This document shows, piece by piece, positions 33,515 through 37,944 of a stretch of 64,000 bases of DNA. The position numbers and the translations under genes are program-made. How positions within the stretch are numbered: position 1 is the stretch's first letter; each line of letters starts with the position of its first letter. The stretch covers positions 124,001 through 188,000 of the forward strand of contig ML213509.1 of NCBI GenBank assembly GCA_004369045.1. Direction: 5' to 3'. This stretch comes from Heliocybe sulcata. Its lineage: Eukaryota; Basidiomycota; Agaricomycetes; Gloeophyllales; Gloeophyllaceae. The notes beneath the pieces are model-generated. The model was not told the DNA's origin. It saw only the letters and a list, made by a program, of their open reading frames with translations, and did no database searches.

Positions 33515-36500
33515 TTAGCTAAATGACAACACGCCTTGACCACGCTCGGGATCGGACATGCGGTGGACGCGTACAGTGTTCGTCACAGCGACATTGTTCA
33601 TGTCCTGCGGCGTGATGAGGATATACTGCTTGCCATCGGACGAGTTGGCGGTATCGATCTAGGGGGAGCGTAATCAGGTGAACATGTGTGTAGAAGTATT
33701 AAATAGAGGCGCACCATCATCTTCATACTGATACGTCGATTAACAGCGTCCATGAAGACGTCGAACTCGTCTAGTCATACAAATCAGGACCAGCCACCTA
33801 CGTACGGAAGGTGGATACGCACCAAGGCAGCGGATAGGACAGCCGATAGCCTCCCACAGCGACAAAAGCAAACAGATAGTCGAGAACGACTTCTCTCCCC
33901 CACTCAGCGAGCGAGGATCTTTGTCCCGAGCCTGCGTTCCCGCTTGGTCGTCGGTCTGGACCTAGGATTGTCAGCGGTGTTAGATCAGCGTGTCCAGTCT
34001 AGGGCGACGTCAACGGGTAACAGACCTTTAACGCAAGGGTACCAGCAGAGTGGTCGAACAGCACTTTCCCGTAATAACCACGGTTGGAAAGGTGGTACTG
34101 GAACACGACCTTGCAGCGAAGAGCGATATGCCTGCGGAACTCGTGCCATTTCGCCAATCGGATGACCAAAGACGCTTTCAACGCCTTGTTAAGAGCAGTC
34201 ATCTGCTTGAGGTCGCGCTCGGCATTGTCAAGTGCACTCTTATGTCTATTGAGCTGCATGGTGATTTCCTCCACCGTCGCTCCTTGTCTAGATGACTCGT
34301 CAATGGAAAACATAACTGCTGAGGCCGACCGCACTGACTTCTTCTCCCGCTGCTTGAGGGCCGCCTGGACGGAGTCCAGGTCGCGCTGGACCTCCGCGAC
34401 CTCGCGAGGATTCTCAAAGCGATTGCAGTATTCCTCCGCCTTCGCAGTCCAGTCCTATAACATCGGTAAGGGACGGGTTCCATTGTTGCTCGTCTAAGAC
34501 ATACCTCGAAGACCTTCTGCAATTCCTCAGCCTCCTCCTGAACTGCATTCACCTTCGCTTGGTCGTCGTCAAGCTTCTTCTGATAGTGCTGCTTGTTCTT
34601 CTGAGCCTCGAGCCGCTTTATGACGGCTTCATCGATTTCTCCCTGTAGGAAGACATGAGGAGTCAGGGATTGATTCGCACAACAGACCACTACAGAAGCT
34701 CACCTTGATCCCATTACGTCGCTCATTGAAGTCATCAATCTTCTTCTTGACGTCGTTCTGCTCAGCAATAAGCGGTTTCTGCGCCTCGTCCACCTCCGCT
34801 CTCTGCTTCAAGAGGTTGGCGTACTGCGTCTTGATGTTCTCCCGCTCAACCACGGCCTCCTAGTAAGGTAATAAGGTGAGAGGGTGTGCGCGACGAGTAG
34901 GGGCAACGACGAACATCTCTAGCAGACTGGAGAGCACTGATGGTAGTGGGCAAGTCATCGTTAATCTCGTTCTGGAGGTTGCCGACTTCCAGCTTCTTCT
35001 GCGACACAATCTTGTAAAGGGAAGCGTCACGGTTCTACAAACATGGCTGAGAATCTGTGGCATGCGTAACACTGGCAACCAAAGCGTACGCTGAGATCCT
35101 GAAGAACCCTCTTGCATTCAGTGTGTGCAGCTCTCGTCTGCTTGAGACCGTCGATGACGTCGTGATATTTACGCTCAGCGTCTCTCAAGAGACCCTCGTA
35201 ATACCTGTATAAGCGCTTGAGCACGCTATCTTGAGAGATGTCACTGAGAATACTAACGCGATATTATCTGCAGAACTGCGATTGGTGAAGAGCGCCTGCC
35301 GACGGTCAGCCGCTGGCAACTCTTGGAGCGGGATCGACTGGCCACCACCATCACTGTCGAATGCCAGATGAGAAAACATATGAATGGTAAAGACAACGTC
35401 AACTCACGCGTATCTTCGAACGTTATACCTGTCTCTCGTCCAAGCGACGCCGTTGCCGCGCAGGTTCTTGAGCACATTGTTACCTATCTCACGATTCTCA
35501 GCGAGCACGGTTCTCTCGATGCTCTGCTGGTTCACGAGCAAGCGGAGGACGTATTCGTCGTCGATCTATGCACCGTCCACTTTTAGGCACAGTTCTTCCT
35601 TGAATGCGCTGAATTGGCATACCTCAAGCGCTCGGAGCACTGTCAAAATATCTACTGGAGGCTCTCCGCTACTATAATCGAATAGGTCGAACTCGGAGAT
35701 CAGAATGTTGATCATCCCGCTGCGACGTAAGTTAGCACCAGGATATCTAGAAACTTCGACCGTCGACTCACCTGCCCGTCTGATCCAGTATCCTCTTCAG
35801 CTGGGGCCGATCCCTCGCGTCAGTGACCGCAAAAGACGACATCGAACCGCCCAGTTGCGTTCTCAAGACCTCCGCCCACTTCTCCGGTTCCTTCACTTTG
35901 ACGTGGACGCCCAACGGGCCCACTGGCTTGTTGCCATACCATTTTGCTCCCTTGATCTCCTGCAGCACTCGCTTCATATCCCTTCCGTACGCCCCCAAGC
36001 TGTTGTCTTCCTCAGAGCGCGCCCGCGACAGCGCCTCCTGAGCCTTATGGACCTCAACCTGCGCCTTGCTACGGGCCGTATCGCCTTCGTCGCCTGACTG
36101 CGCGATGTTGCGGAGTTCGATGTTCTTCTCCTGGATCTGCACGCGCACATCCTTCAGCTGCTCTTCGGCGTTGTGCAGGTCCTCTCGCGCTGCTTGGATC
36201 TTCTGTTCGATCTCGTCTCGCTTGAACTTGGTCTGAGCCTCCAGCTTTTTGGTCTCCTCCTCGATCGACTTCCCACACTCCTCTATATGCTTGCTGGTGC
36301 GGTTGATTTGGTCGTTCATTTCCTTTTCCTGTGCCTAAACACGATGGCTTAAGCAGCAAGTACAAAACAAGCAGAGAAAGCTCACCTTCAAGTCGAAGAT
36401 CTTCTTCTTGTTCGCTTTAATCTTCTCCCCCAGGTCAGCCTTCCTCTTCTGCAGATCCTCAATGTCACCCAATTCGGCGTACTGCGACTCCAAGATCCCA

Positions 36501-37944
36501 ACCTGCTCGCTCGCAGCGCGGAACGAAGCTTCAGTGGCGTCTAATTCGGCTTGAAGCTTGGGCAGGCGGCGCTGCATCTTCGCAACTTCCTCCATCTTCT
36601 TCTTCATCTCCGTCTCCTTACTAGCCACGTGAGCCCATGCCAACTCCTTCTTCAGCTCATCTGCCTCTTGTTTCTTCTTCCGAGCTTGTTCAGCCTCCTT
36701 GAATCTGTCGGATGCCTCCTTGTAGGCCTGACGCAAGTCGCTCATTCCATCCTTCTTGCTCTGTAAGACCTTGGCAGTTTGGGAGATGTTTTCGAAGCAG
36801 GTGTCATATTCGTCGCTCAACTGTTGAAGCTGAGTACCCTTCAGGAAGAACTAGACAAGATGAACCAACAAATGAGTGTGACGAATAAATGGCACCGACC
36901 TAGACATACCTTATACTTGTCGTTAGGGTTCGCAGCACTCAAGAACTGCCGAGCAGAGTCTATCAAAAAATATCAGTCTCTCGCCTCGTCCTTAACGAGC
37001 CGACTCCGAAACTAACCTTGCGTAAGCACATTCATTGGGTTGTCTACCTGAATATTCATGTGGTCGCATATAGCTGCGAGCTCTTCTCGTTTGGTGGAGA
37101 CGACGCGCCCATCCTTACTCTTGATCTTGTAGGATGAGCTACCTTCTTTTGTGAAGCGGCGCGTTACGACGATGCTTTTGCCATATGATTCGGGTTTGTA
37201 CGCCTCTTCACCCTGATTCTTGAGCGAAATGCTGACTTCAGAAACACTAGACAGCAAACCAGTGAGGAAGAATACTAGGCATGATTGGTGGCGACGTACG
37301 ATTGGCCTTCACGAATGAAAGACTTAAGGCCGGAGCCACGACCAGTGGAGGTTGCTTTGCCTCCGAGAGCGACGGTGACGGCTGATAGAACAGCACTTTT
37401 GCCACCTTATATAGCGTGTTCAAGATAGGAGGACATGCGAAGATTTACTATGACCTACTTCCGTTGTGACCTAGGGGTATATTTAGCTACAGGCTATAGG
37501 ACACACGCCACTGCGACTCTTACCAATAATGAAGTTGATCTGCGGGCCGAATGAGAAAGTCAAGTATTTGTGACACATGAACTGGTGCATTTCCAGGGAC
37601 TCAATAATCCCCATCTCCGCGACACCCTATTCACAGATCACAGACGTCAATCAGCCACAGAGAGCACGATAAAATATTACGTGACTTACACCCTGATGTC
37701 TGCTCTTCTTCTGCACCAGAGCACGTATAGCTTCCTCATGCTCTTCCTCAAACATCCTCTCGACGTCCTCCTCCTTTACCTCTTCATCGTCGCTCGCCTC
37801 CTGTTGCGCGTGGTCCTTACTTTTGCGTCCAGCGGGAACGTGGCCTTCATCGCGCTTGGCCCTCTTCGCAGGGGTACTCTGCGGGCTGTGGTCGCCCTCT
37901 CCTTCGCTGCCGCTGACGTCTGTTGCCCTGCGCTTGCCGGGCAT
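33515..37944 (-). CDS. smc6: SMC6, structural maintenance of chromosomes protein
   Basis: Twenty exons give 1126 residues. They are 37690-37944, 37524-37626, 37459-37470, 37300-37405, 37017-37246, 36910-36959, 36386-36850, 35772-36334, 35623-35719, 35408-35565, 35258-35353, 35090-35204, 34915-35034, 34704-34859, 34505-34642, 34339-34454, 34026-34287, 33823-33961, 33715-33770 and 33515-33658. After an acidic, Ser-rich leader come Walker A GHNGSGKS at 120-127, coiled coil, a hinge around residues 430-600, a second coil, and the ABC signature LSGGE at 1033-1037. DEFDVFMD at 1061-1068 is diagnostic for SMC6 rather than other SMCs. SMC6 pairs with SMC5 in the Smc5/6 complex for recombinational repair, which carries the Nse2 SUMO ligase. 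Exon 3 is only 12 bases and encodes part of Walker A. An ACGCGT site lies 78 bases before the ATG (38022-38027). Confidence 0.96.

Follow-up and report, generated by a model that had tools for sequence, protein, structure and literature searches.

Twelve bases between two short introns in a gene of Heliocybe sulcata raise the question of whether so small an exon is really used to build the ATP-binding loop of an SMC6 protein and, if so, whether its inclusion could serve as a switch. We analyzed a window of 64,000 nucleotides (assembly GCA_004369045.1, contig ML213509.1, positions 124,001 to 188,000); unless labelled otherwise, positions below are those of the window. The SMC6 coding region was assembled by hand, and the assembled frame contained no internal stop along the minus strand from 37944 to 33515 (Table 1). 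With residues 1–302 as the query, the top match was the SMC6 chain 9lwi_A (227.6 bits, E 2e-66), the remaining SMC6 rows scored approximately 156 bits and the top SMC5 row scored 61.3 bits, and by this comparison the gene product appears nearest to SMC6 among SMC proteins with solved structures. The C-terminal translation contained SLSGGEKSFST and CLDEFDVFMD, which we take to be the ABC signature and the Walker B motif of SMC6, respectively. A search of the genome (31.6 Mb in 51 contigs) with the SMC6 protein picked up, besides the SMC6 gene itself, a single weak SMC match on C24, and a search with the 118-nt span comprising the microexon and its two introns returned only the span itself. At the sensitivity of these searches, SMC6 is a single-copy gene. 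SMC6 was also scanned once against genome_contigs and once against viral_contigs, with only distant P-loop matches (82 loci), the top ones showing 35% identity in genome_contigs and 40% identity over residues 4–81 in viral_contigs. The downstream neighbour on the minus strand (approximately 33082-30624) resembled a protein kinase; its raw frames contained VVHNDIK and DFGFAEKYD, and its exons were taken from the gene finder described below.

Table 1. Coordinates of the SMC6 gene, the features around its P-loop and the small exons of two other genes.
Feature	Position	Strand	Length and sequence	Remarks
SMC6 coding region	33515..37944	minus	1126 aa	Hand-assembled; open from ATG to TAA; 20 exons, 19 introns
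Exon 2	37524..37626	minus		3' end is ...INFII plus base 1 of the P-loop Gly codon
Intron 2	37471..37523	minus	53 nt, GTAAGA...CCCTAG	If retained, GKSRSGVCPIACS and then a stop
Microexon (exon 3)	37459..37470	minus	12 nt, GTCACAACGGAA	2 bases of Gly, HNG, 1 base of Ser
Intron 3	37406..37458	minus	53 nt, GTAGGT...TATAAG	If retained, SRS and then a stop after HNG
Exon 4	37300..37405	minus		5' end is the remainder of Ser plus GKSAVLSAVTVALGG
Rival single intron	37406..37511	minus	106 nt, donor GTGGCG	Loop would be GKSRSGKS
RecQ-like helicase microexon	C7:39592-39606 (L012:9592-9606)		15 nt, AHCIS	In frame; part of the DEAH motif
RecQ-like helicase 36-nt exon	L012:8979-9014		36 nt, SLCFQIPALADE	Follows an intron that cuts Walker A after the lysine (APTGMGK)
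AMP deaminase microexon	C7:110881-110894 (L020:881-894)		14 nt, HVPHR	Aligns with solved AMP deaminases

We regarded as a coding microexon any exon of 30 nt or less that is preceded by AG, followed by GT and required to keep a conserved frame. Exon 3 combined all of these features: it measured 12 nt, with TAG before it, GTAGGT after it and phase 1 at both junctions. Across these junctions the codons G+GT, CAC, AAC, GGA and A+GT read G-H-N-G-S and were followed by GKS. The Walker A pattern GxNGSGKS was found at residue 120 of SMC6 as GHNGSGKS, for which the microexon was required, and in the five alignments shown it corresponded to NNGSGKS of the SMC6 chains. The coordinates of the microexon, its splice sites and both intron lengths, checked against the sequence and the 20-exon model, agreed with the preliminary description of this DNA. 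The other 17 introns of the gene measured 50–64 nt, similar to the two 53-nt introns that flank the microexon. The heptamer TAGGTCA was present twice on the minus strand (37473-37467 and 37457-37451, 16 bases apart), once at the acceptor preceding the microexon and once just within intron 3, and a second TAG acceptor therefore lies 16 bases downstream of the microexon acceptor.

The preliminary description had also held that GHNGSGKS can only be assembled with the microexon. We enumerated the splice models with zero, one or two introns between 37600 and 37330, allowing GT or GC donors, AG acceptors and introns of at least 20 nt, which gave 7384 combinations (1 intronless, 245 single-intron and 7138 two-intron). 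An open [GA]xxxxGK[ST] was obtained in 24 combinations, all of which shared the AAG acceptor at 37406, and GHNGSGKS was obtained in four. Among these four, the flanking peptide was intact only in the 12-base microexon model; the other three lost or added neighbouring residues and used a GC donor (two models) or a 20-nt intron (one model). Among the models enumerated, the microexon is therefore the sole way to GHNGSGKS with intact flanks, although the original wording was slightly too strong, as three flank-altering alternatives exist. As had been proposed, skipping the microexon kept the frame and removed HNGS, and the loop became IIGGKSA, in which the P-loop spacing is gone. The Pfam AAA_23 scores were 76.3 bits for the protein with the microexon, 66.1 bits for that of a rival single-intron model and 51.7 bits for the skipping product, and the corresponding SMC_N scores (cut-off, 40) were 56.6, 44.5 and 33.5 bits.

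The rival model, which the preliminary description had overlooked, dispenses with the microexon and removes one 106-nt intron, leaving the loop GKSRSGKS. This loop keeps the frame, matches G-x4-GKS and still exceeds the Pfam cut-offs for both AAA_23 and SMC_N. It reads in this way because the codons of the intron 2 donor (GGT AAG AGT; 37524-37511, minus strand) spell GKS, which we take as a coincidence. However, the AAA_23 score drops by 10 bits, and the SMC6 chains aligned with this region read NNGSGKS. Moreover, the donor GTGGCG scored below all 288 trained donors and lacked the G at position +5, which was present in 19 of 19 SMC6 introns under the microexon model. For the remaining models with one or two introns, the grounds for rejection were the donor score, the length of an intron, changes in the flanking residues or the Pfam score.

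To estimate the chance level, we generated 200,000 dinucleotide shuffles of the 118-nt span, each retaining the outer splice sites; the test was framed after the answer had been seen. An open 12-nt exon of any content between AG and GT appeared in 29,101 shuffles, whereas a 12-nt exon yielding GxxG[ST]GK[ST] appeared in 62 and one yielding GxNGSGKS in two (none of the 200,000 when G was also required at donor +5). These counts indicate that the tiny exon itself is cheap by chance and that the restored peptide is not. They also bear on the possibility that an assembly or base-calling error produced the apparent two-intron structure. Such an error would have to preserve the splice signals, the phase and the exact peptide, a combination as rare as the two shuffles above even with no demand on donor +5, and the SMC6 gene was otherwise intact across its 20 exons; we consider an error of this kind extremely improbable.

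A small self-training gene finder was built from 264 kb of the genome and re-estimated without the minus strand of the window, although the run that supplied its initial labels had seen that strand, which also entered its background counts. In the held-out run it called 17 SMC6 exons, 15 of which, including the microexon, were exactly as in the hand model; one start was off by 6 nt and the final exon extended into intron 17. The path through the microexon scored 0.09 (natural-log units), compared with -1.64 when the exon was skipped and -8.62 when the 106-nt intron was removed. The last value adds to the points against removal of a single intron, which is hardly credible, whereas on splice signals alone the microexon exceeded skipping by a margin of just 1.7 units. 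When run on 1000 shuffled spans, the gene finder called an exon no longer than 15 nt in 120 of them and restored a P-loop in two, and 149 spans equalled or exceeded the score of the real one. On this control we rejected the gene finder as proof of the microexon, and its call may be read as a sign of compatibility that gives weak support by itself. The earlier remark that the exon is a hard target for gene predictors is borne out in part: an exon-by-exon SMC_N search of the genome listed 13 matches, none of them at the SMC6 gene, but the simple gene finder described here, trained on DNA of this genome, recovered the 12-nt exon.

The preliminary observation was thus right. Very probably the 12 bases are a genuine microexon in the coding region of the fungal SMC6 gene, itself single-copy, and are constitutively included to complete the P-loop; constitutive inclusion is the most likely reading. 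Introns 2 and 3, both short, would each be recognized by intron definition and then removed, and their removal would be sequential because a 12-nt exon leaves scant space for two splicing complexes. The microexon would be routinely included, with GHNGSGKS as the completed ATP-binding loop. Faulty splicing would in most cases leave an intron in place and meet a stop immediately, and skipping would yield an in-frame SMC6 head without its P-loop, presumably with loss of function. By analogy with yeast, the importance of ATP binding for the Smc5/6 complex is supported: in an excerpt of one study, mutations that block ATP binding abolished the salt-stable association of Smc5/6 with DNA (PMC8327961), and in an excerpt of another, a Walker A mutation was lethal in Smc5, not Smc6 (PMC4357442). 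For annotation, a gene model that lacks the microexon yields a dead-looking SMC6.

The strength of the splice sites was compared with that of 288 trained introns. Intron 2 ranked at the 21st percentile for its donor and at the 16th for its acceptor, and intron 3 at the 48th and 6th percentiles, respectively. With donor, acceptor and length scored together, the two lowest totals among the 19 belonged to introns 2 and 3 (3.14 and 3.15); the next-lowest introns (3.51 and 3.59) were within 0.5 unit of them. Intron 3 was the sole SMC6 intron with an AAG acceptor, a feature that the preliminary description had passed over, and the sole one without CTNAN. Genome-wide, each of these features alone is unremarkable, as AAG was the acceptor of 13 of the 288 trained introns (9 of the 184 with long flanking exons) and CTNAN was missing near the end of 55 of 184, a set that includes mis-calls. 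From the combined weakness of the two introns, leaky splicing around the microexon is possible. Leaky skipping or retention might even tune SMC6 at the RNA level in step with the cell cycle or with DNA damage, some transcripts losing the ATP-binding loop and others being truncated; this is very improbable, and its sole sign is that introns 2 and 3 are the weakest of the 19.

A related proposal is that intron 3 is often retained and that the stop three codons on would limit the level of SMC6, with no second protein being made. The two features that single out intron 3 among the 19, as well as the SRS and stop that its retention would add, are consistent with such a brake, and intron retention was the most frequent coding event in Schizophyllum commune in the excerpt of PMC5034255. 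However, with neither AAG nor the absence of CTNAN being rare in the genome, we consider the brake highly improbable.

The preliminary description had further suggested that the microexon is a possible on/off switch. In such a reading, skipping under some condition would leave an in-frame SMC6 unable to bind ATP, which could poison the Smc5/6 complex or leave it idle. The kept frame, the loss of HNGS from the loop and the low scores of introns 2 and 3, with AAG and without CTNAN in the latter, would suit such a role, and a 20-nt microexon that depends on glucose has been reported in the Xlr2 gene of Trichoderma virens (PMC11121469, in excerpt). However, any exon has a one-in-three chance of a length divisible by three, and skipping requires a 118-nt intron, whereas the other introns of the gene measure 50–64 nt. 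The lack of CTNAN was, as noted, shared by many trained introns. Among the transcript-based coding events of S. commune, exon skipping accounted for 1% and intron retention for 43–44%, according to the excerpt of PMC5034255; the junction analysis in the same excerpt placed 1,527 skipping events within coding sequence, along with 7,851 alternative splice sites, indicating that skipping is not absent there. A switch role for the SMC6 microexon is possible but unsupported, and we regard conditional skipping as very improbable. If skipping or retention were regulated, SMC6 would offer a rare example of microexon control over an SMC ATPase.

RNA structure was considered in the same context. Positions 37410-37419 and 37489-37498 formed a 10-nt inverted pair with 90% complementarity. 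Pairing of the introns that would loop out the microexon was rejected, as the 158-nt span had a z value of 1.32 and 176 of 200 shuffles folded at least as stably. A duplex between introns 2 and 3 was likewise rejected: it was equalled by 191 of 2000 shuffled pairs, and several neighbouring SMC6 intron pairs were as strong or stronger. The unexceptional fold thus speaks against the switch as well.

Very small coding exons have been described in other fungi. In the wood-rot basidiomycete Phanerochaete chrysosporium, P450 genes have microexons of 2–10 amino acids (the shortest being 6 bp) and introns of 45–55 bp, and nearly one third of these genes are said to contain microexons (PMC1184071, in excerpt). 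The Xlr2 microexon of the filamentous fungus T. virens resembles that of SMC6 in that a functional domain is completed by it (PMC11121469, in excerpt). In contrast to the SMC6 microexon, which belongs to an SMC ATPase and is known here from sequence alone, the P. chrysosporium cases lie in P450 genes, with alternative splicing observed for CYP63 (PMC1184071), and the 20-nt exon of Xlr2 is reportedly regulated by glucose and is not a multiple of three (PMC11121469). In Fusarium CYP621A, according to an excerpt of PMC12940212, a one-nucleotide exon backed by orthologues and RNA reads was missed by annotation and betrayed by an unusually long apparent intron. Like the SMC6 microexon, it is needed for a conserved motif, but its single nucleotide is not a multiple of three, unlike the 12 nt of SMC6 (PMC12940212). 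Among open-licence papers, a literature search for smc6 and microexon found no paper, and a search on smc6, splicing, intron and fungal found no title or abstract opening on an SMC6 microexon.

Within the H. sulcata genome, six other SMC/RAD50-type P-loops were found (GPNGSGKS, GLNGSGKS, GPNGAGKS, GRNGSGKS, GPNGTGKS and GPNGSGKT). Each lay within one exon, and the split loop is therefore peculiar to SMC6 among the P-loops of this type found here. Microexons as such are not peculiar to SMC6 in this genome. Outside the held-out strand, 15 of the 273 internal exons called by the gene finder were tiny; of the three that were checked, two were backed by homology and one (HWQTN, in the RecQ-like gene) was apparently wrong. 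The HWQTN call was rejected, with a 36-nt exon reading SLCFQIPALADE present instead.

The two homology-backed microexons, of 15 and 14 nt, encoded conserved enzyme motifs and lay within 125 kb. The RecQ-like AHCIS exon aligned with DEAHCVS of the Bloom helicase, and its removal, in which six residues were deleted (one too many), lowered the Pfam DEAD score from 58.8 to 37.6 bits. Like the SMC6 microexon, it is in frame, lies inside an ATPase motif and has short flanking introns, and skipping would remove the motif; it differs in belonging to a DEAH motif rather than Walker A, and for both exons the evidence is confined to the DNA. The HVPHR exon of AMP deaminase is near the SMC6 microexon in size and encodes a conserved stretch, but its 14 nt are not divisible by three, so that skipping it would shift the frame, unlike in SMC6.
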